This document shows, one piece after another, positions 14,133 through 54,530 of a stretch of DNA of 64,000 nucleotides. This DNA is from Haematococcus lacustris (Eukaryota; Chlorophyta; Chlorophyceae; Chlamydomonadales; Haematococcaceae): the NCBI GenBank assembly GCA_030144725.1, contig JASKMD010000007.1, positions 9,472,503-9,536,502 on the forward strand. The letters are read 5' to 3'. The position numbers and the translations under genes are program-made. The notes beneath the pieces are model-generated. The model was given only the letters and a program-made list of their open reading frames with translations. It was not told the origin of the DNA and searched no databases. Position 1 is the first letter of the stretch; each line of letters begins with the position of its first letter.

Positions 14133-15506
14133 AGGGTCAGGGTCAAGGTCAGGGTCAGGGTCAGGGTCAGGGTCAGGGTCAGGGTCAAGGTCAGGGTCAG
14201 GGTCAGGGTCAGGGTCAGGGTCAGGGTCAGGGTCAGGGTCAGGGTCAGGGTCAGGGTCAGGGTCAGGGTCAGGGTCAGGGTCAGGGTCAGGGTCAGGGTC
14301 AGGGTCAGGGTCAGGGTCAGGGTCAGGGTCAGGGTCAGGGTCAGGGTCAGGGTCAGGGTCAGGGTCAGGGTCAGGGTCAGGGTCAGGGTCAGGGTCAGGG
14401 TCAGGGTCAGGGTCAGGGTCAGGGTCAGGGTCAGGGTCAGGGTCAGGGTCAGGGTCAGGGTCAGGGTCAGGGTCAGGGTCAGGGTCAGGGTCAGGGTCAG
14501 GGTCAGGGTCAGGGTCAGGGTCAGGGTCAGGGTCAGGGTCAGGGTCAGGGTCAGGGTCAGGGTCAGGGTCAGGGTCAGGGTCAGGGTCAGGGTCAGGGTC
14601 AGGGTCAGGGTCAGGGTCAGGGTCAGGGTCAGGGTCAGGGTCAGGGTCAGGGTCAGGGTCAGGGTCAGGGTCAGGGTCAGGGTCAGGGTCAGGGTCAGGG
14701 TCAGGGTCAGGGTCAGGGTCAGGGTCAGGGTCAGGGTCAGGGTCAGGGTCAGGGTCAGGGTCAGGGTCAGGGTCAGGGTCAGGGTCAGGGTCAGGGTCAG
14801 GGTCAGGGTCAGGGTCAGGGTCAGGGTCAGGGTCAGGGTCAGGGTCAGGGTCAGGGTCAGGGTCAGGGTCAGGGTCAGGGTCAGGGTCAGGGTCAGGGTC
14901 AGGGTCAGGGTCAGGGTCAGGGTCAGGGTCAGGGTCAGGGTCAGGGTCAGGGTCAGGGTCAGGGTCAGGGTCAGGGTCAGGGTCAGGGTCAGGGTCAGGG
15001 TCAGGGTCAGGGTCAGGGTCAGGGTCAGGGTCAGGGTCAGGGTCAGGGTCAGGGTCAGGGTCAGGGTCAGGGTCAGGGTCAGGGTCAGGGTCAGGGTCAG
15101 GGTCAGGGTCAGGGTCAGGGTCAGGGTCAGGGTCAGGGTCAGGGTCAGGGTCAGGGTCAGGGTCAGGGTCAGGGTCAGGGTCAGGGTCAGGGTCAGGGTC
15201 AGGGTCAGGGTCAGGGTCAGGGTCAGGGTCAGGGTCAGGGTCAGGGTCAGGGTCAGGGTCAGGGTCAGGGTCAGGGTCAGGGTCAGGGTCAGGGTCAGGG
15301 TCAGGGTCAGGGTCAGGGTCAGGGTCAGGGTCAGGGTCAGGGTCAGGGTCAGGGTCAGGGTCAGGGTCAGGGTCAGGGTCAGGGTCAGGGTCAGGGTCAG
15401 GGTCAGGGTCAGGGTCAGGGTCAGGGTCAGGGTCAGGGTCAGGGTCAGGGTCAGGGTCAGGGTCAGGGTCAGGGTCAGGGTCAGGGTCAGGGTCAGGGTC
15501 AGGGTC
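14133..15506. repeat. AGGGTC hexamer array, about 229 units
   Basis: 1,374 bp of nearly perfect (AGGGTC)n with only two AAGGTC variants noticed near its left end. Because the unit is six bases all frames are open and encode Gly-Gln, Arg-Val or Leu-Thr dipeptides; these are artefacts. The G-rich strand has GGG every six bases and can form G-quadruplexes. It is not the Chlamydomonas telomere repeat (TTTTAGGG). The same unit recurs near 36300, 48400, 52800 and 54100. Confidence 0.97.
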
Positions 15507-15678: not shown

Positions 15679-15692
15679 TGCAGCTGCAATCA
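15679..15692. repeat. Left target-site duplication of the large LINE
   Basis: TGCAGCTGCAATCA here is repeated exactly at 32999-33012, right after the TTTC tail of the LINE. A 14-bp direct repeat in the expected place supports insertion by target-primed reverse transcription and fixes the element ends at 15693 and 32998. Confidence 0.8.
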
Positions 15693-16579
15693 TAACTGCA
15701 CCAACAAATTTTACTTTGTTTCCTCTGACCGCAGACGCATCAACGAGGTCGTTTGGCCACAGCGCGTGAAGTTGCACGCTGAGACGAGCCGAACGAGTAC
15801 CGCATCGTGGACCCTGGACCTTGGACCTGGACGCCGAAGACAATGGCGCGCCTGCTTACCTGCCTGTGCCTGTGCTATTTTCTGATGGGGACCTCTGCTC
15901 CCCCACTGGTCCAATGCGGCTATGCTAACGGGATTGCGGGCCTTCGGCTGCAATCGTCTGAGTATACAAACGCGGCGGGTCCAACCAGTGGGTCCTGGAG
16001 TATGTTCACCTTTGACTCACTGGCCACAAAACGGGAAAGAGATGGGTTCCAAATGCTTCACAGATGCGATGTCTGCAACAGGTGCAACGACGTGGAACAG
16101 ACGGTGCTAAAACTCTCTCGGACGACAGAAGAGATGAACAGGTGGAGTGGTGCCGACATCCAGATAGCCAGTTCGGTCGCAATCGACAGCCCAAGTAGCA
16201 AACGGCAGCCGAGACCAGCCCTTGTCACAGATCAATCTACAGGCAACAGAAGGACTAGCCAAGCCAACAATGGTGAGCAATCTGACACCCCCTGGCAAGT
16301 TTTACCAAGAACCCAAACCTGCGACGCCGTTGCTGACATGATAACGCGCTGCAGCAGGCACTCTGCAAAACAGGCTATAGCCCATTGTGGAGAACCACCT
16401 GACATCCTCTTGCAGGTCCAGCCAAGATCCCAAACCTGGAAGGCTGCTACACATGCTATGATGTGCCACGGTAGAAGTAGCAAATGCTCCATGCACAAGA
16501 TACCCACCGGGCATGACCAGTCGCTTGACACGGATGCGCAGGCTGACATGAAGCACGCCGTCCAGCATTGCCACCACCT

Positions 16580-17560
16580 ACCAGCCATGTCCGATGCACA
16601 CCGGCATAACCAGACACTAAACACAAAATCGCATACCGCACATGCTGATGCGCAGGCAGCCAGTAGACATGCACCTCAGCATTGCCACCACCTGCCAGCC
16701 ATGAATGCTGCACACCGCCATAAGAAGACATCTGGCACAACTATGCAAACTGCGGATGCTGATGCGCAGGCCGCACAGAGACATGCTACTCAGCTGCACC
16801 ACCACCTGCCAGCCTTAGCTGCGGCAGCCTGGCACGACTAGCCTTATGACACAGCCAAGCTAGCTACACATGCTGATGCGCAGGCAGCCAATAGACATGC
16901 TCCTCAGCACTGCCACCACCTGCCAGCCATGATTGTTGCACACTGGCATAACCTGACATCTCACACAACTATGCAAACTGCGGATGCTGATGCGCAGGCC
17001 GCACAGAGACATGCTACTCAGCTGCACCACCACCTGCCAGCCTTAGCTGCGACAGCCTGGCACGACCAGCCTTATGACACAGCCAAGCTAGCTACACATG
17101 CTGATGCGCAGGCAGCCAATAGACATGCACCTCAGCACTGCCACCACCTGCCAGCCATGATTGTTGCACACTGGCATAACCTGACATCTCACACAACTAT
17201 GCAAACTGCGGATGCTGATGCGCAGGCCGCACAGAGACATGCTACTCAGCTGCACCACCACCTGCCAGCCTTAGCTGCGACAGCCTGGCACGACCAGCCT
17301 TATGACACAGCCAAGCTAGCTACACATGCTGATGCGCAGGCAGCCAATAGACATGCACCTCAGCACTGCCACCACCTGCCAGCCATGATTGTTGCACACT
17401 GGCATAACCTGACATCTCACACAACTATGCAAACTGCGGATGCTGATGCGCAGGCCGCACAGAGACATGCTACTCAGCTGCACCACCACCTGTCAGTCTT
17501 AGCTGCTGCTACCTGGCATGAACAGCCTTATGACACAGCCATGCTAGCTACACATGCTGA
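16580..17560 (+). repeat. 228-bp tandem repeats in LINE coding region
   Basis: ATGATTGTTGCACACTGG recurs at 16929, 17157 and 17385, a period of 228 bp (76 codons). Each unit encodes two related halves built on DADAQAAQRHATQLHHHLPA and HADAQAANRHAPQHCHHLPA. Copies are nearly identical, and the unit length is a multiple of three, so expansion keeps the frame. Confidence 0.9.
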
Positions 17561-18251
17561 TGCGCAAAAGCCTTACAACCACTTGCAAAGCCTTACCACC
17601 AACACCTGCAAAGCCTTACCACCACCACCGGCAAAGCCTTACCACCACCTGCCAGCTCTGACTGTCATACCCAATACCCTTTGTTCACCAACAACCACAA
17701 CCCACATCACCAACAACCACAACCCACATCACCACAACCACAACCCACACCACCAAGAACCACAACCCTCTGTTCACCAGCAACCACAACTTACACACAT
17801 TGGGACAACCATTAACCAACATAACAGGCTAATGAACATGCTCATGCTCTTTGTTACATGCACGCACCTGTTGAACACACTCTACCAACGCATAAGCCAC
17901 CCCTTGCAGCCCACAATCAAGGATTCCAAACGTTGCTTTAGGAAACACAAGAAACTAATCGCCCGTATCAGAGCGACGATTAGGACCACTTGTTACAATC
18001 TCATGGCAGGGATAGACGGCACCCAAGCTTCCTCTTGTGCCCTCTGTAAGCTGGCCGACAGGTTTCACCTCTCTACGCATGGAGCCAACAGCAGCCATCC
18101 TTACACAGTCAGCCAGTTCAATAGCACGCTGCATGTCTATTGCACCTACCAGATAGCAGCCAAAAGGAATGGAAGAGACAATACCCCATGCACCATGGAC
18201 CCCTTCTCTGCCGCCCGAGCTGTCTACTTGGCCTGGCTATTGCTAGCCGCT

Positions 18252-18278
18252 GGGGATGTTGAAGCTAACCCCGGCCCT
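18252..18278 (+). other. 2A ribosome-skipping peptide motif (GDVEANPGP)
   Basis: Codons at 18252-18278 read G-D-V-E-A-N-P-G-P, an exact match to the 2A core D-V/I-E-x-N-P-G-P. The hydrophobic AVYLAWLLLAA precedes it, as in known 2A sequences. In other 2A proteins the ribosome fails to link the last Gly and Pro, releasing the upstream product and continuing. Here it would separate the His-rich N-terminal part from the Josephin-like domains, whose product would start PAHCEEHHSG. Confidence 0.85.
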
Positions 18279-18317
18279 GCCCACTGTGAGGAGCATCACT
18301 CAGGAGCCAACCCCAAC

Positions 18318-18720
18318 CCCCTTTATTTCGAAGTTCAAATAGATCGCAACTGTCAAGCCCACTCCCTTAACAATGCAGTTGGCAAGCATTGGGTGAAACC
18401 TAATGACCTTCACACTTTTTGGAAAGCCTGGCAATATAGACTTCACGACGCAGGCGACAGGAAGGCGTGGTTGATTGCACGAGGCGACGGAGGTGCACTT
18501 AGCGACGAGGTCATCCACCTCTACCTTCAAACACACTACGGCCTGACTCTTACAAGCGTCGCCCAACTACACACCGCAGAGGACTGGAGCGACGACAAGC
18601 TTGACGCATTGGCGATGAAGTATGCCACCCTTAACTTCTTATGTAAAACGAACGGCCACAGCATGGCAATTAGAAAACTTGGCGGCCATTGGAAGCTCCT
18701 AGACTCCAACAGCCCCAGTA
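18318..18720 (+). other. Josephin-like cysteine-protease domain 1
   Basis: DRNCQAHSLNNAVG (Cys codon 18351) fits the Josephin active-site signature C-x-x-H-x-L-N-N. NGHSMAIRKLGGHWKLLDS (His codon 18657) fits the later His/Asp region of ataxin-3-type deubiquitinases. It directly follows the 2A site. Role is inferred: cutting the polyprotein or removing ubiquitin from the element's own proteins. Confidence 0.65.
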
Positions 18721-18905
18721 AAGCAGCTATACCAATTCACGAGTTGTCGCCTCTCTACAGAACAACCTTCCACGAGATATTCGTCATTGCACCAGACCCA
18801 GCAGCTACACCGACACAAACCATAGCCCTAAGACGAGAAGGTATATGCCACATCATAAGTCATAAGGAAGACAACATACCCAGGTACACAGTGCCAAACC
18901 CACTC

Positions 18906-19365
18906 CAGCCCCCATACATGGAGTATCAACATGATAACTGCTGCCTCGTACATGCCTTCAACATGGCCATGGGAGTCAAGCTGATAGACCATCAAGCAGT
19001 CATTAGACATTGTAAGAACCTGGCGGACCACATGCAACAACTAGCACAACAAGCTCGAGATATGGGGCTTGCAGTAAGAGCATTGCACACAAGCCATATC
19101 TACGACAAAGAAGGCAAGTTCTCATTAGACACATTGAACCACTACCTCCACCGCACACATCATAATACCTATCTACACCCAGCCACCCAACTCCTCCCCC
19201 GAGGCAGCATCACACCCGGTAAAATCCTGGGTGCAATTACAGACACAGGTGCAACATGCACAAGCGCAATCATCCTCCTCTCTTGTAACAATGGCAAAGA
19301 CATCGGCCATGCGACTGCTATAAGGCACACCTCACAAGGATGGCTCTGGTTGGACTCGCTACGCC
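18906..19365 (+). other. Josephin-like cysteine-protease domain 2
   Basis: HDNCCLVHAFNMAMG (Cys codons 18939 and 18942) repeats the C-x-x-H-x-F-N pattern. IGHATAIRHTSQGWLWLDSL supplies the His and Asp region. The order and spacing match domain 1, so it is a tandem duplicate with considerable divergence. Confidence 0.6.
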
Positions 19366-19513
19366 ACGCACCACAACCGCTCAACACGCCCCTTGACTGG
19401 CATCGCCTACAGGGCAGCCTGCTGACCATCACTGCAGGCAACGTAGAACACACAACATTTGTCCGCAGAGAGATATGAGATGATGTGGCTTACACCGCTT
19501 AAGCCGTCAGCCG

Positions 19514-22500
19514 TTAGGCTGCTAGGCCGCCCTCCCCCTCTAGGGGTTCGGGACTTTCTGTAACGCACTTCAAAGCAAGGTGCACAAACAAAGGTGCACA
19601 TGGGCTCAACATGAAGTCATGCAAATTCTCATTATTGTTTTGTAAGGTCATGGCAAACTCCGGCTGCTCCCTGATGGAACTCGTGGCAGTGCACTCAAAG
19701 ATGAAATGCATGGCGTCATCCACTACCCCCTCTGTGCATCTGGTGCATGTGCGATCAATGAAAGTTACCCCCTCAAACCGAGCCTTCTCCACCCCCAGAC
19801 CACTGTTGCCTAACCTGAACCTAGTCAAGCTCGTGCGAACTTCTGTAGATAGTTGTCTGTTAAGCAGGTGTGGTGCCATGTGATTGATGCCAATGCCGTC
19901 CCCATGCTTGAACCATGCAGCATACGAACATCTCTCCCGATGCACCGTCTCAGGCAATCTAGGGTCTCCCTCAAACCCAACCCAACGCCTCCCCCACCTC
20001 TCGAGCCACTTCACTTCCATAGCCTTGGTGCCTAGGACCATGTCCGGGCTCAAGGTGAACTCACCCCCCATCAGCTCTCTGGCGGCAAGCTGGAACTGAG
20101 CACTCCAGCTGGCCTGGCAACCCCTGCCTAACTCCACATCTGCCTTGATGACCCTCATTAGCAGGTCACTGTGGGATAGTTTGGCAGTGTTCCAGAACTT
20201 GCATGCAGCCCTAAGCCAGTAAAGTTGGAGGGGCAGCTGCCCCAACTCATGCAGCACCATCAGGCCTGACACTGAGCCACGTACCCTGGCAGCAAACCTG
20301 AGAAAGCTGAGCATGCGTGTTTGCACTGGGTTGGAGAGCTGCATACCGTGCCCAAGGAAGGCAGTGCCCCATACCTGGCTGCCATACAGCCCTAAGGGGA
20401 GCACAAACGCTCTAATGAGGTGACACAGGGCATAGGGATCATGCAGGACCCCATACTCTCTAGCACGCTTGCACGCCTGGCGCATGGCGAGGAACATGCC
20501 AGCCCTCATATGAGTGGCAGCAAAAGCAGGGGTGGCGCTGGGGTTGAAGTGCATGCCTAAGTACTTGAACTCTCTCACCACAGGCAGGATCTCATGCTTG
20601 TACCCAATCCTAGGTGCTGCAGTTTGTGAGTTGCCATTGAAGACCATCACCTTTGACTTGCCCACATTGACTGTAAGGTGTTTCCTGTCTGCAAAGCCTT
20701 GAAGCTGGCAGACCAGCCGCTGCAGCCCGTGGGGCGAGGTGCTCACCAGGGTCAAGTCATCAGCATACATGAAGTGGGTGACAGGTGTGCCTTGCACCCT
20801 CACAGCATCAACAGGACCCAGGAACTCCTTACTAATGTCGTGAACATAGAGAGCAAACAGGAGAGGGCTGATGGGGCAGCCTTGCTTGACACCTTGGTCC
20901 GGAATCACTGGGGGGGTGCGGTGGGGGCCATCTATCAGCACATAGCTATCATCCCTATACAGACCCTCCAGGCAGGCAAGCAAGGGCTGTGGCAGCTTGA
21001 CCCCAACCCGTAAGTGCTCCCACAATTGTTGTCGAGGTATGTGGTCATAGGCCTGTTTGAAGTCAATGAAGGCAGTGTAAAGCTTGCGGTGCTTGGCATC
21101 TGCGCTAGCCTTTTGAGCGTGGACAAGATGGCGCAGAATGAACATGGGTTGCATGGTGCTGCGTCCCGGGATGAACCCAAACTGCTCAGCTGGCAGCACT
21201 TTGTGTGTCATGCACCAGGCAGTCAGCACGTGCCGCAAGACGTTAGCATACAGGCGGTACAACACACTACTCACAGCAAGCATTCTGTACTTGTTGGGGT
21301 CTGTGGGGTCTGTGTCCTTGAAGAGGGGGCTGATCCTAGCTACCTTCCAAGCCGCTGGGATACACCCAGTGCGCATCATGCTGTGAAACCATGTGGCAAG
21401 CAGAGGGAGCAACAAGTATGTGGTAACACCCTCCTCAACTGTGCGGGCGTGCTTGATGAAGGGGGCTGGGACCCCATCCAGGCCAGGTGCTGTGTCATTG
21501 TTGAGTTCACGAAGTTGTGCTTGAACAATGGATGTGATGTTGTCAAGATGGGGCAGCTCATAGGTAGGTGCATGTGTTGTGACAGGGGCAGGGGCAGGGA
21601 CAGAGTGAGGTCTGCCTCTCCCAAGAGGGACGGCTTGCAAATGGGCAGGCACAGCTTGCCTGGTCCAGGCTGGCTCAGGGATCACATCAGGTGCTTCATG
21701 TGCCGCAATGGTGGTTGTGAAGTAGGCCTGCAGATGCTGATGCCACTTGTCAATGGGAACCATGGACTGCTGGCGTGCGTGCTTGACTCGGAGCATCTTG
21801 AGTGCATCCCCAGGGTTGTGCTTGAGCATGTCTAGAAGCTTGGCAGCTCTGTGCTTGGACCACGCAGACTTAGCTCTCGCAACCAGCCTCCTATAGGCCT
21901 GCTTTCTAGCCCTGTAAAGGTGCAAAGCCTCCCCGCTACGCAGAGCCTGCCAGAGTGCGGCTTTAGCCTCCTTGCATGACCGGTCAAACCAGGCAGGCTT
22001 AACTGTGGTGTGCTTGTCAACGCGTGCCAGCGGGCAGAGCCTTGGCTTGAGCATCCCCGCACTGCCCGCAGCCCGTGATATGATGTCATGCACAAAGCGG
22101 TTGATGGAGTCAGGGTGTGTGCCTTGCTCAACAGCCTGCTGGACAGCCATGACCTCCTCTTCCAAGGCAATAAGGGCACCCACATACCGTGCAGCCTGAT
22201 CTGGCTTCCATTGCAACTGTGGGCCAGTGTGGCAGTCAGCATTGCAGGTGTGAATGTGCGTAGTGGCTTGTGCTGGTGCCTTGAAAGACAGGGTGATGGG
22301 GGAGTGGTCAAACTCATGACAAGCGTCGGGAAAGGAAGATGTGTGGCTCAAAGAGTAAACCGACTCAGACATGATGATGTGCTCCGTGCGGGTGCTAGCT
22401 CTACAGGTGCGCTGCCCCATGTCCCCATGTCCCCTGCCGGTAGTGGCAACAAGGCCTGTAGCTGACAGCACGTCAATCAACTCCCTGCCCGCTTGGTTAG

Positions 22501-23026
22501 ACTTGGCCGGGCCAATCCTAGGCACGCAAAGCTCCGGATGCTGCATGGACCAGCCATGGAGGTCACTTATCTCGCTTAGCTTGCCTAAATGAGAGTTCAG
22601 GTCACCCATCAGGAGGACATGTGGTGTGTGTGATGTAGCCTCCTGGAGCTCTAGCAGCAAGTGGTTGAAGTGCTCAGAGACATTGTGAGCGGGGGGTATG
22701 TAGCCCACACCCAGCAACACATCGCCCTCAAGTCCACACACACACCCTGCCAGCCTGACCCAAAGCAGCTGCATGGCACTACTGGTGCGCCATAGCCTGG
22801 CGTGCCTGGCTAGCTCCTTGCGCAGCAGAAGGGCCACCCCCTGACCCGGCACCCCCTGACGTGAAACAGTAGTGTGAAAGGCACTATGGGTAGGGGCATG
22901 CTGCATGAACTCCGCTATCCTATTGCTGCGTGTCTCGCACAGAGCGATGACATCATGCTCGGCCACCAGCCTCCTAATAGCTGTGAACTTGACTGAGGTG
23001 GTGTCATGCTTGAGGCCATTGACTCA
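19514..23026 (-). CDS. LINE ORF2: APE endonuclease and reverse transcriptase
   Basis: An open frame of about 1,150 codons. The N-terminal part is an exonuclease III-like (APE) endonuclease: VNGLKHDTTSVKF near 23020, AEHDVIALCETRSN (catalytic Glu), LLMGDLNSHLG, and FDHSPITLSF (final Asp-His). The reverse transcriptase follows with FIPGRSTMQP, AFIDFKQAYDHIP, DQGVKQGCPISPLLFALYV and the catalytic FMYADDLTLV (YADD at 20756-20767). The C-terminus has CTRCTEGVVDDAMHFIFEC, a CCHC-like zinc motif common in LINEs. No RNase H was seen. An in-frame TGA just upstream of VNGL (near 23027), beside a short GTCAATGA duplication, leaves the true start uncertain. The frame is otherwise intact, so this copy may be young. 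Confidence 0.88.
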
Positions 23027-23061
23027 TTGACCGCTAACCTGAGCTCTCGAGGGGTGAGTCC

Positions 23062-23707
23062 CTAGCCCCGACCCTCTCCCACGCCCTGAGCCCCCACCGC
23101 CCTGAGCTTACCCGTAGGAGTCTCCCCAGACGCACCTAACCCCGCTTGATGCCTTGTGCGGTGGTTCCCCAAAGGGGGAGAGAGTGGGCGGCTCTTGGTT
23201 GGGGAGCCTGGGGCCGAGTGGCCGCCACCCCCCAGGGGGAAGGGCGGGGGGGGGGGCAGATGGCTGAGGACTGCTGCTGTTGCTGCTGCGTTGCGCTGTG
23301 TCTGGTTGGGCAGGGTGGGGCGACCTGGTGCCACAGTCTTGGCTGTTGTCTGGCTGGGACCCGCTGCTGCTGCTGCTGCACTGCGCTGCACCTGGTTAGG
23401 CGAGGCGGGGCGGCTGCCCGGCGCAGCTGTCTTCCCCGGAGCCTTGCCGGCTGGTGCCTGGTTAGGCCCCCCTGCTGCTGCTGCTGCTGCTGCTGCTGCA
23501 CTGCGCTGCACCTGGTTAGGCGAGGCGGGGCGGCTGCCCGGCGCAGCTGTCTTCCCCGGAGCCTTGCCGGCTGGTGCCTGGTTAGGCCCCCCTGCTGCTG
23601 CTGCTGCTGCTGCTGCACTGCGCTGCACCTGGTTAGGCGAGGCGGGGCGGCTGCCCGGCGCAGCTGTCTTCCCCGGAGCCTTGCCGGCTGGTGCCTGGTT
23701 AGGCCCC

Positions 23708-23739
<32 letters not shown>

Positions 23740-24220
23740 ACTGCGCTGCGCCCGGTTAGGATCTGCAGGCTGGTTGTCCTCTTCCATTGCTGCGGCAGCT
23801 GCTGCCGCACCCTGCTGCTGCTGTTGATGCTGCTGCTGCTGTTGACGGGTGGCGAGGGACCTTGGTAGGAGAAAAGCTGCAGGCTGGTCCGCAGCCGCAT
23901 ACTCACATGCTGCCTCAATGCTGCACTCATCCATGCTCTTCAGGTCTGGCTTGCTGAGGTTGCTGAGGTGGACAAACAGGGGGTAGGTAATCTGCTTCCC
24001 CTTCCAGGTGGTGATGATGGCTGTGCGTGACTTGTTGCATTCAAAACGCATGCCATGCACAGGGGACCGCACACTGCTCTTATCCACAACTGCCTGCAGC
24101 TGCCGGCGAGCTGGCCACACGACCCGCTGTAGCGGACCCTTCCCCAGGTCTGCTGGGAGTGCGGCCTGCTGGGCAGCAGCCAGAACGCTGAGGGCTGAGG
24201 CATGGGAGCCGACACTGACC
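23062..24220 (-). CDS. LINE ORF1-like protein
   Basis: Frame upstream of the reverse-transcriptase ORF on the same strand. It contains a compact N-terminal part (SSVRSPVHGMRFECNKSR, then ITYPLFVHLSNLSKPDLKSM) that could be a nucleic-acid-binding fold, then poly-Gln and poly-Ala runs, then three tandem units with PNQAPAGKAPGKTAAPGSRP. The repeat units are 114-120 bp on DNA at about 23380-23750. The first codons of the open frame belong to the outer LINE's flank, so the true start lies within about 24050-24220. No family recognised. Confidence 0.6.
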
Positions 24221-24226
24221 TTAGCG

Positions 24227-24314
24227 AGAGATATGGCTAGCAGACCCCCAGGCAGGCTACACACCTCAAGAGAGATATGGCTAGCAGACCCCCAGGCAGG
24301 CTACACACCTCAAG
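24227..24314 (+). repeat. 44-bp tandem duplication at the nested-LINE junction
   Basis: AGAGATATGGCTAGCAGACC and the following bases up to ACACCTCAAG occur twice in a row, at 24227 and 24271. The left side of the nested LINE has only AGAGATATG. Either the outer LINE already had the duplication, or 5'-end joining of the inner LINE copied target sequence twice. Confidence 0.85.
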
Positions 24315-24899
24315 ACCTAGCCGCACACCTTGCCGATCACACGACCCCTATAGACCTCACAGAAGCACATCAGACCAGAGCAATGCCTGCTCCTAATATC
24401 GCCCTGAACCATAGATCCAAGAGAACCAACCCCGCGAACCCTACAACTAAACATACCAAACGCAGACAGGTACCCCCACCCCCAGCTCCAGCCCCAGCCC
24501 CAGCCCCAGCCCCAGCCCCAGCCCCAGCCCCAGCCCCAGCCCCAGCCCCAGCCCCAGCCCCAGCCTCAGCCCCAACCCCAACCCCAACCCCAACCCCAGC
24601 CCCACCCCTTTGCCCCACCCCATCCCCGCCCCTGGCAGCAGAGCCACCCCCCCCCAGCAGGCCCATGCAACAAGTGCCCCCCATGACAAAGAAGCGCCGC
24701 CCAACCAGAGTTACCACCCACGACCACAGCACCAAGCGCCAGATTCGCATCACCAACTTCCTCTCCCTGAAGACTCCCTCCGAACCAGATCCCACGCCCA
24801 GCACCAAACCCCACAACAACGCCCGTATAGGCCAGCCTGCCATCACAACAGAACCAACAACCACACTTGACCCCAAACCCATACCCATTCTCAGCAACC

Positions 24900-25636
24900 T
24901 CACAATCAGCACACTCAACACACAAGGGCTCTACACAAAAGGACAAGACGTCATAGAGCTGATTCTGGACGACAACCCAGACATCTTAGTACTCACAGAG
25001 ACCAAGATAGGCAGAAAGAGCAAGATGGCCCCAAGATGGCTGCAAACAATGTTACGTGACTACACCTGGTGGCACAGCCACCACCACACCGCAGGAACCA
25101 TCCTAGCTGTCAAGCGCTCTATAGCTGTGGCAACCACAGCCAAAGCAAACACCGCTGACACTGCTGGGAGACTGGTCACAGCCACCCTGCAGCCCACAAA
25201 CTCCACGCCAGTCATCCTGATAGGTACCTACTGGCCATCAGGACACAGCGCAGCAGCGTCCTCATCCCGCCTCGCCATGCAAGACACCATAACAACACTC
25301 CTAAATGCACACAGATCACACCTCCCCCTAATGATAGGAGACATGAATGCCACCTGGCGGCCCAATGACAGGAGCAGCAACACCACCTACCCGCAGGACA
25401 TGGAGTACAGGGCCTTCTTGCACTCCCAGAACCTGCAGCCAGTGCAACAAGAAGATAGAAAAGCCACACACAGGCAATGGAAGGAGGCAGACGAAGCAGG
25501 CCAGCCACAAAGTACTGACAGTCGCATTGATGACATCCTCACACGCAACAGCCCCGCAAAATTACGGTAGCTTACGGTACTGCTAGCCTGCGCAAGCAAA
25601 TGGGGAGGCGGGCTCAGCGACCACCTACCCCTTACT
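24900..25636 (+). other. APE endonuclease domain of the large LINE
   Basis: ISTLNTQGL (Asn), ILVLTETKIG (catalytic Glu), MIGDMNATWRPND (Asp and Asn), DSRIDDIL (Asp) and LSDHLPL (Asp-His) appear in the order of apurinic-type LINE endonucleases, which nick the target DNA. The TAG at 25568 falls between the last two motifs. Confidence 0.88.
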
Positions 25637-26000
25637 ATGACCCTAGATATCACGTCCACTGGCCTCAACATACCTGCCATACCCACATTGCCGACCTTAA
25701 GACAGACCTCCAAAAAAGCGCTCACAACTCCAGTCAGCAAAGAAGACCAGGAGAAGTTCAAGCACGCCTGCCAAGACACGAACAACAACATTCCACAACT
25801 CCTAGCACGCCTGCAATTGACCCTGAGCCCTGCTAAAACAGCGGCACAAGCACACTATGCAGCCATCACCAACAGTTGCGCCAAATCTATCCACCAACTA
25901 ACCCACATCGATGGAATCAGTGCACCAATAGTTGTGAATGAGCTGGCCACCCATATGCACAAACTCCTGGACAAATGCCTCAAGGTGGCAATAGAAAACT

Positions 26001-26500
26001 NNNNNNNNNNNNNNNNNNNNNNNNNNNNNNNNNNNNNNNNNNNNNNNNNNNNNNNNNNNNNNNNNNNNNNNNNNNNNNNNNNNNNNNNNNNNNNNNNNNN
26101 NNNNNNNNNNNNNNNNNNNNNNNNNNNNNNNNNNNNNNNNNNNNNNNNNNNNNNNNNNNNNNNNNNNNNNNNNNNNNNNNNNNNNNNNNNNNNNNNNNNN
26201 NNNNNNNNNNNNNNNNNNNNNNNNNNNNNNNNNNNNNNNNNNNNNNNNNNNNNNNNNNNNNNNNNNNNNNNNNNNNNNNNNNNNNNNNNNNNNNNNNNNN
26301 NNNNNNNNNNNNNNNNNNNNNNNNNNNNNNNNNNNNNNNNNNNNNNNNNNNNNNNNNNNNNNNNNNNNNNNNNNNNNNNNNNNNNNNNNNNNNNNNNNNN
26401 NNNNNNNNNNNNNNNNNNNNNNNNNNNNNNNNNNNNNNNNNNNNNNNNNNNNNNNNNNNNNNNNNNNNNNNNNNNNNNNNNNNNNNNNNNNNNNNNNNNN
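26001..26500. other. Assembly gap (500 N)
   Basis: Exactly 500 N, probably a placeholder of unknown true length, inside the large LINE between the endonuclease and the RT palm. Reading frame is shared on both sides only if the true length leaves the same phase. Confidence 0.99.
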
Positions 26501-29500
26501 TGCCAAACCAAAACCCATGATACCACAGGTCAACACTACCGGCTGCGAGGCTGCAACAAACTCAGAAGCCACAAGCGGCACACCCACCTATGGATCAAGC
26601 ATGCACAGCACCACCCGAGTGACTACAAGGGAAGCACCATCACCGACGCACTAACACATGTGCCTCCCCTCCCCTCCTGCAAAGTACCTACAGCGGCCAA
26701 GCAGACAGCACTAGACATCATACAGATGTACTACAAAGACGGTACCCCCTTCCACACTGCCCTAAAACTAGCCTACAAACACACAAAAACAGACCTACAA
26801 TCCTACGACAAAGAGCAGTCAGCTATCCATGCTGACAGACACCGAGCAGCTGCCCAGAAGCTCATTCACACCAAACCAAGGCTAGCAAACAAGGCCATCT
26901 TCCAACCATCGAGCAAACGCCACACCATCACAGCCCTACACGATGACAGAACTGGTGCGCTGGCAACAGACCCCACACAACTTGTCCAGGTAGCTGACCG
27001 CTACTTTACGCGAACTTGGGCCGCCACAGGCAGCAAAACAGGGACATACCTACCAGAACACTGCCCTAGAAAGGCACCTTGGGAGCAGCCCAATGCCATT
27101 GACCGCTTCACACTCAAGACGGGCGCCACCCAGCGAGAAGAGCCAGACCTGGAAGGCAACAGAGCAAAGAGGGCGTGGCTTAACTCCACGATCCAGGACA
27201 CCGCAACCTTCCACACTTGCCTAAAACAGCTGAGCAGCGGCAAAGCACCAGGACCAGATGACATACCTAACGAACTACTGAAAATGCTACCAAACGAAAT
27301 CACGACTGCCATACACGACATGTTCACAGTCCTATGGGCGACAGGCCTCACCCCCACCGGATGGAAGACTAGCAACACTGTGCTCATTTACAAAAACAAG
27401 GGGTCCGAGACTGACCTAGCCAACTACAGACCCATCGGCCTTGCCAACACCCTCTACAAACTATGGACACGTATGATCACAGTGGCACTATACGAGTATG
27501 CTGAACAACACAACGTCCTTAGTAGCTGCCAGGCAGGCTTCCGCCGGCACCAAGACACTATGACCCAACTGCAAAGCCTAGTCATGGCCCTCGAAGACGC
27601 CAAGATAGGCCAACAAGACATCTACGCACTCATCGTAGACTTTACCTCTGCCTTTAACACCACCGATCAGGATAAGACACTCTGGATCATGTATGACCTG
27701 GGCTTTCCCACAGATGCCATCGAGGCAGTAAAAGATCTATACACCGGAGCGAGCAGCACAGTACAGCTCACACCACAACTGAAAGGCCAACCTGTTCCTA
27801 TCACACGAGGCACTATCCAAGGAGACTCTCTCTCTCCTCTACTATTCCTAATCTACATGGAGCCGCTCTTGCGATGGCTGCACGTCGGAGGCAGAGGGTA
27901 TGAGCACAGCTGCCTCGATGCAACACAGCACCAGGACAACACTCTACGACACCAAAACAAACTGAGCAGCCTAGCCTTTGCAGACGACCTCATCATTCTC
28001 ACCTCGTGCCTCTCCGACCTTAAGATCCAGGCGCATAAGCTCACAGAGTTCTCCACTTGGGGCAGCCTGCAAGTGTCAGGCAGCAAAACCAAAGTAACAG
28101 GCATACTACACCAAAAGGCCAAGACAAAAGTCTATGGCACAAATGATCCCACAGCCCAGGTGGCAGCCCAGCTCCATGGCCAGATTGAGGTGCAAGGACA
28201 GGCCACTCAGTACCTCCCCCCCACCCAGCCCTTCCTGTACCTAGGTGTCAACATCACCATGACCCTGGACTGGAAGCACCAGCATAGACGCATGACTGAC
28301 ACCCTCCGCTCCAGGCTTGAATGCCTCCGCACATCATACGCCTCACCTCGTCAGACCCTCCACATCGTGAAGACGGCTGTGGCCACCTGCTTGGCCTATG
28401 CCTTTCCAGTGACACCCTGCTCACCCACTGACCTAGAAGCATGGGACAGCATGATAACCACAATGATGAAGCGCAGGTTTGGCCTGTGGGTCAGCGCACC
28501 TAGCGCCATGATCCGTGAAGATACAGACACCTTTGGCCTAGGATGCACCTCACTGGCAGTGGAATACAACAGCCGCTGCGTGAAGGCACTATTGGAAGGA
28601 CTCCAAGCGGAGGGCCGCTACGGCAAGGTCACCAGGTCCATGCTTGCCATGCAGATCACGTACCTCTCGCAGCTGCTAGCCCAAAAGCCATCCAGACATC
28701 AGACTCAGAAGGAGCTGCAGAAATGCTCTCGCACTCGCCAGCTGCTCTGCGCCCACAACAGCTCCCTGCAAGTGGCACTCCAAGGCACCACCATTGACCC
28801 CCCCCTGTTGGCACAGCTACAAGCTATACACACAGCATCGGTGGCCCAACCCCTAGACAAACACCACACTAGAGTGATGCGTGCCATAGTGGGCCCCCTG
28901 ATTGCACTTGGCTTCTCTGGCCCCCACCAGCTCTTAGAAATGAAAGGCACCAACATCATATCAGGCAGAGAGTTGAGGGTCCTCGCCAAACAAAGGGGCA
29001 GGAGGGCAACACACAAACACATTGGAGCCCTAAACCGCCTGCGCCTGCTGCTTCAGCTAGGGGAGGAACCCACCTCAGACCAACTGCAAGCCATCATGAA
29101 CCACCGGGACATCAACCTTGACCTGGACCTCAAGCACAGGCAGACGCACCACAGCATGGGAGGCCTCACAGCCTGCCAGTGGACTGACAAAAGCACATAC
29201 GCACTACCAGGGTGGAACTGGCAGGTCTCAATTGCCGCCAACCAAGTCATTCGCATCACCGACCTCTTCAAAAAGCCCCCCGAACAACCCACTGCTGCCC
29301 CACCACCCCACACAAACACACAACACAACAGTGCAACCACAACCGACCCACAGAACATCAACAACAAGAGGCCTGCGCCGAAACCCCCCACCGGCAACAA
29401 GAGCATGGGCAGAGTAGCCCTACCTGATGCCACTGACCTCCCTCTGCCACACCTGAACCCGACCCAGCTATACACCTGGAAGGAGGACCAAGCCACAAGT

Positions 29501-29806
29501 GGCACAGTTAGCCACAGCCAAATGATGTTGAACCAGATGTTCAGGCACAGGGAGAAGATCAAGAAGGTCTTTGGCTGGCAGATTACTAACACCACATTTG
29601 GCCTAGACCTACGCCCCAAAGCAGCAAGAAGGACACACCAAAAGCAACAATCTAAAGAGGAGGTTGATGGCACCATGCAACAGCAATACTGGGTAACATG
29701 GCACCCGTCAAGAGTTGAGAAATGGGCCCTCCCCCTCTACGCCAAGAATGGCTACCACCCGCAGAGCGTAAAGCCCTACCCACGCAGCCAACTCAGGGAC
29801 GACGAC

Positions 29807-29995
29807 TGCGACTGTGAGCTATGCTGGTCACCCAACAGCAGGGAGAATGATGCAGATGCTGCAGACATGTATGTCTGTGACACATGCCAGCGCACGTACC
29901 ACTGGCAGTGCCTTCTTGACTGCAAATGCGCCAAGCCAAGTGAAAGACCTGGCTCTGATGACAACACAGAATGGGAATGCCCCTTGTGCGCACCG
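29807..29995 (+). other. PHD-type zinc finger of the large LINE
   Basis: Cys/His spacing CDCELC, then MYVCDTCQRTYHWQCL, then CKCAKPSE and WECPLC fits the C4-H-C3 order of a PHD finger, including the aromatic before the last Cys pair. PHD fingers often bind histone H3 tails, so it might guide chromatin targeting of the element (inference). Confidence 0.75.
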
Positions 29996-31182
29996 CTAGC
30001 TCCACACGAGAAGGAGGCACGCAGAGCCGCTGCTGACGAGGAGATAGTAGAGGTCCACTGGGAACCCAGCGCGGAGGCATTCACCATGCTAAATCACCAT
30101 ACAGACTTCTGCGAGCTTATGGAGGAGTACAAAACAGAGACGGAGGCTAGGCAACACGCACTCACAAGCACGCGCAAGGACGGCGACATTAACGACGATC
30201 TGATGCGACAAAGCATGAGCGACACTGCACGTGGACAATGGCAGTCCACCCACGGCGACCCGCTACGCTCCAAAATTAGATTCGACATCCTCCCCACTAA
30301 CCCGCAGCTTGACATATGCCCAACTGGAAGGTGCGAAGTGTGGCTTCGACATGCAGACTTCTACCCCTGCCAACAAAACCCAGCCCTCACACAAGCCTTA
30401 CCCCAACCAATCACACAGCAGGTCGTAGCCGTCTACAACACAGATGGTAAATGCATGGGAGTCATCACACCCGCCCGAGCAGCAAACCTGCTATCTAGAT
30501 ACAACGCAACTCAGAAGGACGCCCCGACACCTCTAAACACTAGCTTTGCCGCAGAGCTTGTCAGCCTCTTGGCAAGGCATGGCCAAGCCACCGCTGATGC
30601 CACACACACAACCCCCACACCAATCGTCCACATCCTGAGACAACACCTGGAGATCACCAAGGAACGCTACACCACCCCTCTCCACTGCAGCCCACTCTTT
30701 GAAGAGTACTACAGCCCATGCGAAAAAGACAAACTGTTTGGCTCACTGGGCCCCCCCTTACTCTGCCAGCACCAAGGCATGTCATGGGCCCAACCCACCA
30801 AAGCAGACATCACTATGGCTGTCCGACACGCCCTACACGCAGCACAAGCCCCAACACACACACCAACCCTCACTGCCATGCTCCTGCCCAACAAAGGACG
30901 CACAAACTCTGCAACATACATGCGGTGGATTTCTGAGCACCCCCACCTGTGCACCAAAGTTGGCACCTTCGCACCCCATGCGCTGCAGCCAGACCCGCCG
31001 CAAGCGTGGACTGGGGGCATACCGTACACCTGCAGCAACAAACACCACTCACTGCTCGTACTTATTCACAACTCGAGTGCAATACATCATCTGCAAGCAC
31101 GGAACCCACTATGGCTCGACAGCCTGCGCGGCGCCTTGAGTCAGCTCGCTGGTAGGAAGTTCCTACCCCCCTTAAACACACG

Positions 31183-31195
31183 CCCCCCCCCCCCC
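31183..31195 (+). other. 13-C run where the LINE frame changes
   Basis: A homopolymer of 13 C. Upstream the polyprotein is in one frame (to 31303) and downstream the RNase H/nuclease part is in another (open from 31215). A one- or two-base length error, slippage mutation or programmed frameshift at this run would explain it. Confidence 0.7.
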
Positions 31196-31214
31196 ACCGC
31201 CGGCCCACACAAGC

Positions 31215-32810
31215 TTGACAGGGGCCGGCACCTACAGGAAACTACCCCAAGATACACCAACACCCCCCACAGCCCTCCCCCCCACCTCTCACACCCTCGC
31301 TAACTACTGGAGTGGCACCCACCTCCAACCAAAGGTTGGGGACTGGAAATCATGGACATACACCGATGGCAGCTGCACCACAGCACCAGGAGCACCCCAA
31401 CGCATTGGAGCAGGCATCTACCACCCCCAAGGCACACAACAACACCAAACCATCAACCCCAGTGGAGAGGGGGCTACCAACACGATCACAAGAGCCGAAC
31501 TCGCAGCCATCAAGGCAGCACTAGATCAAGGGCACACACACATCGCCACCGACAGCCTCACCGCCATGTTTCAAATAAGGATGGCTGTCCTCCAACCCAT
31601 GCGTCTCCACCTGCACAAGCACAAGGATATCCTTACCACCATAGTACAAACAATCAAAGCTAGCCCTACCACGATACACCTCTTCAAGGTGAGAGCACAC
31701 AATGGCATCATTGGCAACGAATACGCCGACCACACAGCCAAACTGGCAGCACAACATGATAACCATGATATCACCATCCCAGGTTGCAAGGATCCCTACC
31801 ATGACACCCATTGGCTGCAAACTCCTGGGAAGGAGGACCACCCCCCCCGGCCACTAGGAGACCTGATGGGCAGCCTGAAAACACACATGCACATCAGACA
31901 TAGACTAGGACTGGCCAATCAAGACTCTATCTACTATGAGGCCTGGCAGTCTATCACCCTCATAGCGCACAAGATGAGCAACTTCCTTTGGCGCGATGGG
32001 GCCATCACCACGCCACAACAACGGTGCATAATGCGCTATAGAACTGGAACTCTCTACAATCAGAAGCACGCAGTCCGTTTTGGGCTCAGCGACAGCACAA
32101 ACTGCCCACTATGCGGCCAGCCGGACAGCGCTCTACACATCCTGTCAGGTTGCACTGCTACGAACAAGCTAGTCACGCACCGCCACAATGCGGCCGGCCG
32201 CGCCATCCTCCGAGCCGTGCAGGACGGAGCCCTCGGCGCCGGCCTGGTCTTCACCGATGTCGGCGACCTGTACGAGGACAGCGACACAGCTTCTCCGATC
32301 AAAAGCAAGCTCAAACGCAGAAACCTGAGACGCGCGCTCGATATAGACCCCACCACTACAGGACGAATCACCTACCCGGACGCCGTGATTATCTCCCCAA
32401 ACGGGCCCTACGAAGGACCGGCGACGAAGATCCCGCTGAGGCATAGACATGTGACTCTGATAGAAATAAAATACTGCATGGACACCGACCCAACGGAACA
32501 ACTACACAAAGCGACTGCGCAGCACGCCAACTTGCTCCAAGCACTTCAACCAGGCATCAACTGTGCCTCCGCGAAACAAATCAACATCATGCTAGGAGTG
32601 GGTGGCACAATATACAAGGACCACACCCACAAGCGACTTCTAGAGCTAGGAGTCCAGGACACAAACGACAACCTGCTGAAGTGGCTACACCGACATGCGA
32701 TACAAACTGCACATGCACTCGTTGTAGCGAGACGGCAAGCTGAACCGCCGAAACAGCAAAGAAAGCAAAATAAACAATGGACACGAACGGCAAGGGCACC
32801 GGCTGGATGA
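31215..32810 (+). CDS. LINE polyprotein, C-terminal part (RNase H and restriction-like endonuclease)
   Basis: RNase H: WTYTDGSCTT (Asp codon 31365), TRAELAAIKAAL (Glu 31497), IATDSLTAM (Asp 31551), GNEYADHTAKLA (Asp 31728), all catalytic carboxylates present. Then a CCHC motif CPLCGQPDSALHILSGC (32103-32153) and THRHNAAGRAI, followed by a PD-(D/E)XK-type core: TYPDAVII (32373) and LIEIKYCMDTDP (Glu 32463, Lys 32469). This CCHC, R-H-N, PD...K order is that of the restriction-like endonuclease of R2-type LINEs. It is separated from the preceding frame by the 13-C run. Confidence 0.85.
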   Translation: MTGAGTYRKLPQDTPTPPTALPPTSHTLANYWSGTHLQPKVGDWKSWTYTDGSCTTAPGAPQRIGAGIYHPQGTQQHQTINPSGEGATNTITRAELAAIKAALDQGHTHIATDSLTAMFQIRMAVLQPMRLHLHKHKDILTTIVQTIKASPTTIHLFKVRAHNGIIGNEYADHTAKLAAQHDNHDITIPGCKDPYHDTHWLQTPGKEDHPPRPLGDLMGSLKTHMHIRHRLGLANQDSIYYEAWQSITLIAHKMSNFLWRDGAITTPQQRCIMRYRTGTLYNQKHAVRFGLSDSTNCPLCGQPDSALHILSGCTATNKLVTHRHNAAGRAILRAVQDGALGAGLVFTDVGDLYEDSDTASPIKSKLKRRNLRRALDIDPTTTGRITYPDAVIISPNGPYEGPATKIPLRHRHVTLIEIKYCMDTDPTEQLHKATAQHANLLQALQPGINCASAKQINIMLGVGGTIYKDHTHKRLLELGVQDTNDNLLKWLHRHAIQTAHALVVARRQAEPPKQQRKQNKQWTRTARAPAG

Positions 32811-32998
32811 GCTATGCGGGGGAGGGAGGATGTTGACATGGCCCCTGGGTGCGCCCGGTAGCCTGGCAACCCTCCCTCCCCCCCCCCCCCCCACCTGTCT
32901 CCGGTGGGAGGGTAGCAAGGGCACGCCCCGAGGCTACTCTCCCCCCTTAATGCACGCCCGACGGCGAGGGCGTAGTCTTTCTTTCTTTCTTTCTTTCT
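32811..32998 (+). other. 3' UTR and TTTC tail of the large LINE
   Basis: From the stop to CGTAGTC(TTTC)n. Contains a GGTAGCCTGGCAACC / GGTGGGAGGGTAGC region that could pair, a long C run, and the block CCTTAATGCACGCC...GGCGAGGGCGTAGTC that recurs in the relics at 6631 and 61660 and in the SINE at 50528. Likely the region recognised by the element's reverse transcriptase. Confidence 0.75.
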
Positions 32999-33012
32999 TG
33001 CAGCTGCAATCA
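32999..33012. repeat. Right target-site duplication of the large LINE
   Basis: TGCAGCTGCAATCA, identical to 15679-15692, immediately after the TTTC tail. Confidence 0.8.
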
Positions 33013-33202
33013 AGTCTTGCCTCGACTTAACACCCGGACACCACGCGCTACAAACCACCAGAGAGCTGGAACCAGCATTGGACCAGCATGGCTCTGAAAG
33101 CTCCGCCCACAGCCCCTGACCGCGACTCACCATGATTCCAAATGATGACATGAATGGTACCCATGCCATAAGAAACACAAACGGGTTGTAGTCAGTCGCG
33201 TC

Positions 33203-36200
33203 ATGGATATGCAAGAGCCTATTCCTAGCCAGGAGGCAGCGAATGAGTCCGAAATTGAAGGAGCGACCGGCGACGATAGCAGCGACGAAGAAGATAGCTT
33301 AAGCACCTGCAGCTATGGCTCAAGCCAGACAGATGAAAGCCCTGGCAAAAAGAAGAAGGTGCCCACTTCAGACACCCATTGCCCATTCTCGGGTGCCAGC
33401 GAACCAGAGCATTCCTTCCAGCGCAAATGCAGAAGAAGAAGAACAAATCGAGGCGGAAAAAGCCAAATGCCGCGGATCAGCAACCCACGCCCAGCTCTCC
33501 AGGTCCTAGCAAGGAAGAGAAGCAGGATGCGGATAAGAAGTACGTTGTTGCTTATGCAGCGGCGGCCGCAGCACGAGGCTGACTTGCTCCTATAATAATT
33601 TCAGGTTCAATGCTGCGCTAGCTGCGTTGCGAGGCAGTGAAGAGATGTGGATTGATCTGAGCCGTAGCCTGCTACAAGACGCTAAAGCCAAAAAGGTACG
33701 CTGCACTGTCCACCTGCTGCTCCTCCCCCTCCAGTGGCATGTATCCCTGACCCCTGTCTCCTTCATGTCTGTAGCTTATGGAGCAGCTGAAAGCTAACAA
33801 GTCTGTCACAAGCCTGAACCTGTCTCAGAATCAGCTAACAGATGAGGCTGCACAGGTAAGGCCTACTGAAGCCTCAGCTGATGATCGTGAGAGAAAACCA
33901 GAGCTGACCCAAGGCCTCTGCTGCAGGGCATTGCGGCGACACTGGGCATGAGCAGCAGCGCTCCAGACCTCATAGAGCTTGACCTGAGAGAAAACAATTT
34001 TACCGACCAGGGGCTCACCATCCTAGTGAGTAGCCCTACAGCAGCCCTAAACACATGTTGATGCTCCCAGGCTCTCATCGCACCGCAGTCATCTCCTTCC
34101 CTCCCTCCCTCCTCTCTTCCTCCCTCCCTCCCTCATTCCTTTGCAGGCAGGCTTGCAAAAATTGCGGAAGCAGTTGAAGATCCAGACTGGGCTGATACAA
34201 GTAGTTGAGCCCCCCGTTGCCGCAAGCGGCTCAGCCAAGGTCAAGGCAGTCGAGGCAGACAGCAACGGCAGCACAGGCAGCGCGCGGGATCTAACTAAGG
34301 GCCCACTGTTCCGCAAGTTCTTCCAAGGGCCGCGGGGCGAGCAGGAGGACGAGAAGGAGGTGGTACAGCTGGGGCAGGAGCCAGTGGAACCCAGCATTGC
34401 CCCAGGCGAACTGTGGTGCACGGTGGGTCAGCTTCATCTGTCTTCGCACTGGGCTGAGAGACCTCCCTGCTTGCCTGCCCTGCTGTCTGCTCACCGGCCT
34501 GCCCGCCCACCCCTCCCCTCAACTGCCGGCCTGCCTGCCCGCCTACCTCCTGCCATAAGGCATTTTTGCTGACCAACCCACGGTCTGCCTTCCCTGCCCT
34601 GCCTTGCTGGCGCTGTCTTGGTCACTTGGCCCCACCCTGCTCTGCTCTGCTCTGCTCTGCTCCGCAGCTGGTGAACCTGAGTGATGCTCTGGGCGCTGAC
34701 AGCGAGCCTGGCAGCCTGGCAGCGCTGCAGGGCCCCCTGCGCCAGCTCTGCTCCCAGCTTAAGCAGGAGGTGGGCAGCCTCAGCAGCAGCGCAAATGCCC
34801 TGGACGGCAGCAGGCCACATGTGAAGGCAGCAGTGGAGCACTTGCATGTCATGACCAGGCTTGTGGCGCATGAGCCGCGCAAGGTGGAGGTGCAGTACCA
34901 CCCACAACCACAGGTGGGGGCTTCCAGGATTAGAACCCAGTACCTGGAGTTTGATTTTAAAAGGCCTGTAACAACAGAGACAGCCTGTACACCTGTAACA
35001 CTTGTAGTAATACCATTCTGTGTGAGAACAGCAACAGTTGTTTTGACAACACCTCGACAGCACTCGGCACCGTTTCTTGTGCTGTCATGGCCAGACCGGC
35101 ACTGTTAGCAAACCATGCAAAGTAGCATGTGCCAGTCGCAACCCAGTCTATGCTAGCCTGGGTTGACCATGGTTGAGCTGTCCGCCTACCAATCAACCCA
35201 CCCACTACATGTACAGGTAACCTTAGCATGTGTCAGTTGATGTTCAACCACCTACCTACCTACCAACCTACCTGTCTACCTGGCAACCAAGCCCAGCCCA
35301 CCTGGCCTGCCTACCACACCCTTGCCCCCTGTGGCCCGTGCCCTCCCCTCTGCAGCCAGCCGTAGGCAGCCACCGAGTCTGGGTGGCGGAGGCCGTAGCG
35401 CTGCTGCTGGAGTCCCACAACACTACGCTGGACAGCAGCCTAGCCGCCACTGAGCTGGTGCCCCGCCTGCTGCACCTGGCCCTCCACCGGCCCCTGGGCA
35501 GCGCCCTGCACTGCCGGGCCCTGCGCCTGCTGCGTGCCAGCCTGGCCAGCCAACACCTCCCGCTGCTGCAGCCCCTGTTCCAGCCAGGGCTGGGCTGTCA
35601 GCTGAGAATGGGCAAAGTCACTGAACAGCAAGAGAAGGGGGAGGGTGAGCGGGAGGAGGAGGGGGAAGGGGAGGAGGCAGAGGGGGACAAGGCAGCTGCG
35701 GAGCAGGTGCTGTGCCCTCCCTTACCCGAGCTACTGGCAGCCAGAGGTGCGAATGAGAAGGCCTGGTCCGTACTTGACCACAGCCAGCCTTGAAAGGGCA
35801 GGGAAGGGAGGGGTGAGGAATATTGGGCAGGGCAGGGCAGCTCATTGGCACTTCATAAATGTGGGTAGCTTCAGAGGGGCAGAGCTGTAGAGCCCAGGGT
35901 AAGCCACAGGGCAGCGGTTAGGGTTGGGTTAGGGTAAGAGGTGGGTTAGGGTGAGGGTTGAAGGTGAGTTAGGGTGAGGGTAAGGGTTAGAGGTGGGTTA
36001 GGGTGAGGGTTGGGGTCAGGATTAGCTAGCCTCAATGCTAGGGCAGAGCTGTGGAGTCCAGGGCACTTGTCAGGGCAGCTGCAGGTGCCCCACCACAGTG
36101 GCAGTGGCGACTGAGGCAGTGGCAGGAGCAGCAGTCAGAGGCAGCTGCAGTACAGTATGCAGTTGCTCACTTAGCTTGCAGCGCTGTCGCCCACTAGGCA

Positions 36201-38600: not shown

Positions 38601-54530
<15,930 letters not shown>

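Follow-up and report, generated by a model that had tools for sequence, protein, structure and literature searches.

The window analysed here is a 64,000-nucleotide stretch of a Haematococcus lacustris assembly, and positions 15693-32999 of its forward strand are occupied by a copy of a non-long terminal repeat (non-LTR) retrotransposon, a nested insertion included. We adopted these limits because the copy is bounded by an exact 13-bp duplication, GCAGCTGCAATCA, with a left and a right target-site unit (15680-15692 and 33000-33012), and by a (CTTT)n tail at its 3' end (32977-32999). From 5' to 3', the element encodes histidine-rich repeats, a membrane-like basic segment, a 2A motif, two Josephin-like domains, a PCNA-box-like motif, an apurinic/apyrimidinic endonuclease (APE), a reverse transcriptase (RT), a PHD finger, a PCIF1-like domain, an RNase H and a restriction-like endonuclease (RLE). 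A first-pass annotation of this DNA had placed all the parts that it named in one orientation, and this is confirmed by motif positions and Pfam matches in the window.

The reading frame of the window copy is interrupted by two TAG stops (at 16839 and at 25568-25570, the latter within the APE), a nested long interspersed nuclear element (LINE) with a 44-bp duplication next to it and, near 31.2-31.3 kb, a change of frame. The nested LINE lies on the reverse strand at 19478-24225, carries an APE and an RT with an open reading frame at 19514-23023, and is flanked by the 10-bp repeat GAGAGATATG at 19468-19477 and 24226-24235. Adjoining it, a 44-bp piece of the target flank is duplicated in tandem (24226-24313, forward strand); this lesion had been overlooked, and its length makes it a further cause of frame shift in this copy. 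The gap between the APE and the RT contains 500 consecutive N (26001-26500), also missed earlier, and 500 N are likewise present in a sister copy, L041.

Domains of the polyprotein and selection on copies

A hidden Markov model and motif check recovered the parts named in the first-pass annotation, with the Josephin, APE, RT (RVT_1) and RNase H domains recognised by Pfam, the PHD finger by its ligands and by a relative, and the RLE by motif and fold. All of them lie on the forward strand. The APE (Exo_endo_phos, E=1e-9) spans 24896-25648, and the RT (RVT_1, 4e-23) spans 27404-28255 with FADD within 27974-27991; the best solved matches of the RT from sister copy L042 are R2. The Pfam match of the PHD finger (29807-29995) is weak in the window (0.033), but the Cys/His ligands are conserved between two families with 40% identity across the aligned part, with one relative (P0037) exceeding the Pfam cut-off at 2.9e-7. 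The RNase H (PF00075, 7e-16) is located at 31353-31751 and is followed by a CCHC knuckle and the RLE (32103-32768; RHN at 32181, PD at 32373, EIK at 32460). Every hallmark of R2-type RLEs (CCHC, RHN, PD..(E/D)xK and fold) was found, and the seven best fold-comparison rows for the RLE model are R2 proteins; as modelled, the endonuclease has an R2-type fold.

The Josephin-like domains occupy 18315-18794 (a Pfam stretch with approximate limits; Cys 18351, His 18657, Asp 18702) and 18915-19439 (best PF02099 stretch 18927-19385; Cys 18942, His 19308, Asp 19353), both on the forward strand. The PF02099 match in the window (E=5e-12, two stretches) reaches 46.3 bits against a curated cut-off of 26, and sister copies L042 and L043 reach 40.5 and 38.6 bits. 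The Cys/His/Asp triads, set by eye after the ataxin-3 pattern, are both intact at 30 of 30 loci (six positions), the window copy included, and a stop occurs within 17964-19469 at two of the 30. The Josephin assignment rests on Pfam and on the catalytic pattern.

Simple dN/dS-like ratios were counted from single-base codon changes among copies that are related to one another. For five copies compared with L042, these are 0.06 for the RT, 0.07 for both the PHD finger and the RLE, 0.15 for the Josephin domains, 0.18 for the RNase H, 0.28 for the APE and 0.31 for the PCIF1-like domain. Two low-complexity linkers give 0.39 and 0.46, and other inter-domain stretches 0.06-0.25; shared variants within 17964-19469 give 0.21. 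The signal is present in each enzyme domain tested, and these counts suggest that purifying selection acts on the enzyme domains (0.06-0.34).

The N-terminal reading frame has its first part at 15783-16841 (forward strand, as are the features below), where it is closed by the TAG of the window copy. The histidine-rich coding repeats of 114/228 bp (16563-17566) are weakly constrained, with a ratio of 0.63 over 16842-17640 and insertions or deletions in nine of 26 copies. A conserved N-terminal product at 17802-18233 comprises a hydrophobic segment (17829-17885), a basic stretch and a hydrophobic run into the 2A motif; its ratio is 0.24, and among 29 copies it has no stops and insertions or deletions in two. 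The 2A (StopGo) motif GDVEANPGP (18252-18278) fits D(V/I)ExNPGP in frame and is kept at all 29 loci that cover its position, the window copy included. In comparison with another subfamily (P0004), identity is 78% in the N-terminal segment and only 52% in the Josephin part, and this disparity suggests that subfamilies have exchanged parts.

Other non-LTR retrotransposons also carry 2A sequences: excerpts of PMC12846837 and PMC4981915 cite them for L1Tc and for APE-type families attributed to Odon et al. (2013), which share the in-frame D(V/I)ExNPGP. The present element differs from those, as the excerpts describe them, in carrying both endonucleases and in placing the 2A between a histidine-rich, membrane-like protein and a Josephin-headed polyprotein.

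Open frames and relatives

The frame of approximately 4,050 codons that the first-pass annotation described, its lesions set aside, is not a single frame in the window copy, given the stops, insertion, duplication and frame change, but some sister copies do have one uninterrupted frame. Among 91 matches to the PHD-PCIF1 region, eight lie in uninterrupted frames of 3884-4438 codons, and frames of at least 3400 codons contain 14 matches from close relatives and one from a distant relative (longest 4438); these lengths were counted from stop to stop and possibly include untranslated sequence. To our knowledge, the window family is among the longest single-frame LINE polyproteins known. Six 10-kb sister stretches were fetched in all. 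In L042 and L043 the frame stays open from immediately past the 2A through the RLE (3063 and 3069 codons), so that the APE shares its open frame with the terminal RLE; L041 stays open for 2906 codons and has an N run at its end, the frame of L040 is broken once, and those of L039 and L044 are disrupted. The 2A motif and two Josephin domains are therefore in frame with the polymerase parts, as had been claimed, and copies lacking the Josephin/2A part or separating it by conserved stops, the outcome named earlier as refuting, were looked for in the sister copies and not seen. A chance assembly of motifs is ruled out by these open frames.

A diverged family, with approximately 31% identity over the PHD-PCIF1 region, includes one frame of 4077 codons. 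In this family, represented by L045 and L046, the order from APE to RLE is the same, and L046 also has the end of the Josephin part upstream in frame. The 3' ends of that family and of the window family share one pattern, TTAATRCACGCC...TAGT and then (CTTT)n or (CTT)n (window 32940-32999), and the 3' hairpins fold no better than many shuffled sequences (z -0.8 and -1.2). All seven copies that were compared (five of the window family, two of another) differ by eye in their 3' flanks. An excerpt of PMC7617258, which concerns another H. lacustris assembly, indicates that the larger published assembly may contain two genome copies, and copy numbers may for this reason include alleles.

Among 130 related proteins, 104 match at least one of four domain profiles. 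The 73 not labelled Haematococcus match the PHD-PCIF1 region in 55 cases, the RLE in 35, the APE in 31 and the Josephin profile in four, namely P0003 (Haematococcus-like), P0073, P0100 and P0114; the Josephin is present in 22 of the 31 labelled Haematococcus. Pfam gives sub-threshold Josephin scores for P0073 (22.5 bits) and P0065 (21.9 bits, with two Josephin-like stretches by eye) against the cut-off of 26, and none for P0100 and P0114. Many metagenomic relatives are truncated, and absence is thus weak evidence. On these comparisons, the PHD-PCIF1-RNase H-RLE half is widespread, and the Josephin may be old or repeatedly gained. The 2A motif occurs in 12 of the 130 proteins, of which 11 are labelled Haematococcus and one, P0003, is Haematococcus-like and labelled Bosea; because of this confinement, it looks like a recent gain in the lineage, with the caveat that numerous relatives are incomplete. 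The earlier suggestion that this copy shows the full ancestral layout is consequently supported only in part: PHD, PCIF1 and RLE are common among relatives, the Josephin is scattered and may or may not be ancestral, and the 2A was found only in Haematococcus or Haematococcus-like proteins.

Two related observations concern individual proteins. LINE parts resembling those of Haematococcus occur in P0003 and in P0021 (labelled Agrobacterium), two proteins that may represent algal contamination of bacterial assemblies. P0122, a related LINE protein, has, by eye only, a Ulp1-like QCDSWSCG before its APE; searches with Pfam and against solved chains found none.

In an RT tree, 23 of 29 rows form a clade (99/100) with the window RT, apart from three R2 rows, and Josephin carriers are scattered within it. 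The tree is midpoint-rooted, its rows include no Dualen/RandI or L1 sequences, and the named organisms in the clade are Haematococcus and Parachlorella. The nested LINE and P0128 sit on long branches and their placement is unsure; P0118 and P0127 were left out for their short RT matches, and L001-L008, considered as LINE outgroups, were dropped because their frames did not look LINE-like by eye.

The assignment to a Dualen/RandI-type LINE whose single polyprotein includes both APE and RLE, as first proposed, is supported: we use this name because both endonucleases occur in one element, and it rests on architecture. Dualen/RandI LINEs of green algae were reportedly described by Kojima and Fujiwara in 2005; they carry an RNase H and a cysteine protease, and both were found here (PF00075, 7e-16; PF02099, 5e-12). 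Shared features are thus APE plus RLE, RNase H, cysteine protease, a green-algal host and a non-A 3' repeat. To the Dualen/RandI layout as described, the window family appears to add the 2A, tandem Josephin domains, PCIF1-like domain, PHD finger and PCNA-box-like motif, although the Dualen protease may itself be of Josephin type and PHD or PCIF1 may have been noted before. APE and RLE in one element are stated for Dualen in an excerpt of PMC4640811, and part of PMC3747384 lists (CTTT)n for a RandI-linked short interspersed nuclear element and (ATT)n and (CTATTT)n for RandI LINEs.

PCNA-box-like motif and PCIF1-like domain

Two further parts had been overlooked in the first-pass annotation. The candidate PCNA-box-like (PIP) motif, QIRITNFL, is new relative to that annotation; it lies at 24740-24763 (forward strand), with KKRRPTR nearby at 24689-24709, in a low-complexity linker with a basic stretch, after the Josephin domains and N-terminal to the APE. 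It is identical in 25 of 26 distinct copies, the remaining one reading QVRITNFL. The pattern Qxx[ILM]xx-aromatic recurs at a fixed place, with L rather than an aromatic residue at the last position in the window family. The following counts are not independent, as the motif was chosen before its tests and the Haematococcus rows are interrelated: the strict pattern is present in 11 of 29 similarity-thinned stretches upstream of the APE, where shuffles give 0.10, and it was hit 12 times in 3883 upstream residues compared with three times in 38973 residues from the APE start onward in the same proteins. In Parachlorella P0077 the pattern occurs twice, as QKSITAYF and as QTTISSYF. An excerpt of PMC10830420 reports that the PIP box of human LINE-1 ORF2p is required for retrotransposition and states that R2 has none. 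Both LINE-1 and the present family would accordingly carry a PCNA box in the LINE polymerase, which in ORF2p lies, according to the same excerpt, between the endonuclease and the RT, and here before the APE.

The PCIF1-like, methyltransferase-fold domain (30341-31069, forward strand) matches Pfam PF12237 at 7e-5, below the cut-off. Relatives exceed the cut-off for PCIF1_WW (P0042, 2.2e-13; P0037, 5.6e-9), and this label is present on 28 of the 120 proteins listed among 233 RT-to-PCIF1 matches. A profile of 11 LINE sequences matched solved PCIF1/CAPAM (6irv, 3.7e-12; 6irx, 1.6e-10) over approximately 200 residues of the methyltransferase domain, including NPPF. The predicted structure of the window's domain has a mean predicted local distance difference test score of 76, and the window's PHD-PCIF1 region as a lone query gave no match among proteins of 1050-3342 amino acids. 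In contrast to PCIF1, the catalytic NPPF is replaced in the window family, which reads AQPT (30788-30811). A literature search found no work linking PCIF1 with retrotransposons in Chlamydomonas and, among the titles listed, recognised none on retroelement-encoded Josephin domains; it did not extend to Repbase or to the first description of Dualen, where some of these domains may already have been noted.

That the domain still methylates RNA or DNA adenine is quite improbable. Its homology to PCIF1 covers the catalytic region, and among 19 aligned sequences six read NPEY and one SPPF at the NPPF position; however, the remaining 12 have neither, and a second Haematococcus family reads WNVP.

Proposed mechanism and alternatives

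Taking these comparisons together, we consider it likely that the window copy belongs to a recently active Dualen/RandI-type LINE family of H. lacustris that encodes approximately 4,000 codons in one frame and works as follows. Ribosomes would skip at the 2A, freeing a histidine-rich, membrane-like, basic N-terminal (ORF1-like) protein from the polymerase polyprotein. The PHD finger and the PCNA-box-like motif would help the polymerase to reach chromatin, where APE and/or RLE would nick DNA and the element RNA would be copied by target-primed reverse transcription. The two Josephins, which adjoin the PCNA-box-like motif, would most likely be cis-acting deubiquitinases that protect the proteins of the element, or PCNA close by, from ubiquitin, and the PCIF1-like domain is probably a non-catalytic module for RNA or cap recognition in the window family. 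Josephin is a ubiquitin-specific fold. An excerpt of PMC6203705 reports that human L1 is restrained by a host ubiquitin ligase, Rad18, which also ubiquitinates the L1 protein ORF1p. For these two reasons, deubiquitination in cis is our first choice for the Josephins.

A more elaborate version is offered tentatively, and we judge it unlikely: the paired Josephins, tethered by the PCNA box at the insertion site, would strip ubiquitin from PCNA or element proteins and so counter a Rad18-like ligase, and the PCIF1-derived pseudo-methyltransferase would recognise the element RNA at its capped 5' end, favouring full-length copies.

Several results weigh against the proposed interpretation. No solved Josephin chain was matched by single Josephin pieces (E up to 1) or by a long profile (0.01), and the Josephin ratios are higher when distinct variants at 30 loci are counted (0.34 and 0.26), as are those of singletons in 17964-19469 (0.37). 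Nine of the 30 loci have an insertion or gap relative to the window in that interval, some frame-shifting; the selection counts skip these insertions and gaps, such copies being read in the reference frame. The PCIF1-like ratio derives from 9 and 9 changes, and unrelated helical chains (protein A fusions, 5h7b) scored 6.4e-6 and weaker in the PCIF1 profile search, although none of their stretches passed singly and we take the protein A fusion matches as chance. The 2A and PCNA-box-like motifs are short, the strict PIP motif is absent from 18 of the 29 upstream regions, some of them short, and the name Dualen/RandI was assigned from architecture.

The Josephins could equally cleave the polyprotein. 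As virus-like processing proteases, they would cut it into APE, RT and RLE pieces, deubiquitination being incidental, a role that we regard as possible but rather unlikely. In its favour are the length of the polyprotein, approximately 4,000 codons, and its rapidly evolving linkers of low complexity (0.39 and 0.46); against it are the ubiquitin-specific fold and the proteins P0077, P0081 and P0091, which keep their polymerase parts fused with approximately 150-230 residues before the APE and no Pfam protease match. Other RLE LINEs offer a parallel: an excerpt of PMC4640811 describes an N-terminal, Ulp1-like cysteine protease in some of them, Utopia-1_TSP and NeSL. There the protease is Ulp1-like, whereas here it is Josephin, and the same excerpt groups Utopia and NeSL among the RLE clades, without an APE.

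The probability that the Josephin/2A part comes from a host gene that became joined to the LINE by accident or in assembly is next to negligible. Of 11 annotated proteins that match the 2A-Josephin region (ten named H. lacustris and one, P0003, Bosea), most end before the RT (ten have no RT label), which is in its favour. However, P0006 joins Josephin, APE and RT in one protein, the Josephin-to-LINE junction recurs in several families at 39-54% identity and in examined copies with uninterrupted frames, and Josephin-like stretches lie upstream of the APE in other algal or environmental sequences; a separate host gene was rejected as contradicted by the copies. We find it very improbable that the family has decayed into a relic with non-functional domains. 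The lesions of the window copy and the broken or once-interrupted frames of L039, L044 and L040, among six other copies, fit such decay, but it is contradicted by the selection signal in copies, namely the low enzyme-domain ratios, and by near-identical copies with different 3' flanks and open frames elsewhere.

The preferred interpretation, deubiquitination in cis by a recently active LINE, would link predicted retrotransposon-encoded deubiquitinases, PCNA and LINE-restricting host ubiquitin ligases in testable form. The PCIF1-derived domain is a recurrent part of a retrotransposon clade, and because this clade has both endonuclease types, it bears on the move of LINEs from RLE to APE.

The surroundings of the element include an (AGGGTC)229 array just 5' of it (14133-15506, 99% regular) and further long hexamer arrays, for example at 45540-45789, 47665-47938 and 52729-53234. 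On its 3' side, intron-like and leucine-rich-repeat-like coding pieces were recognised by eye at 33013-34200, and from these the LINE copy may sit inside a host gene.

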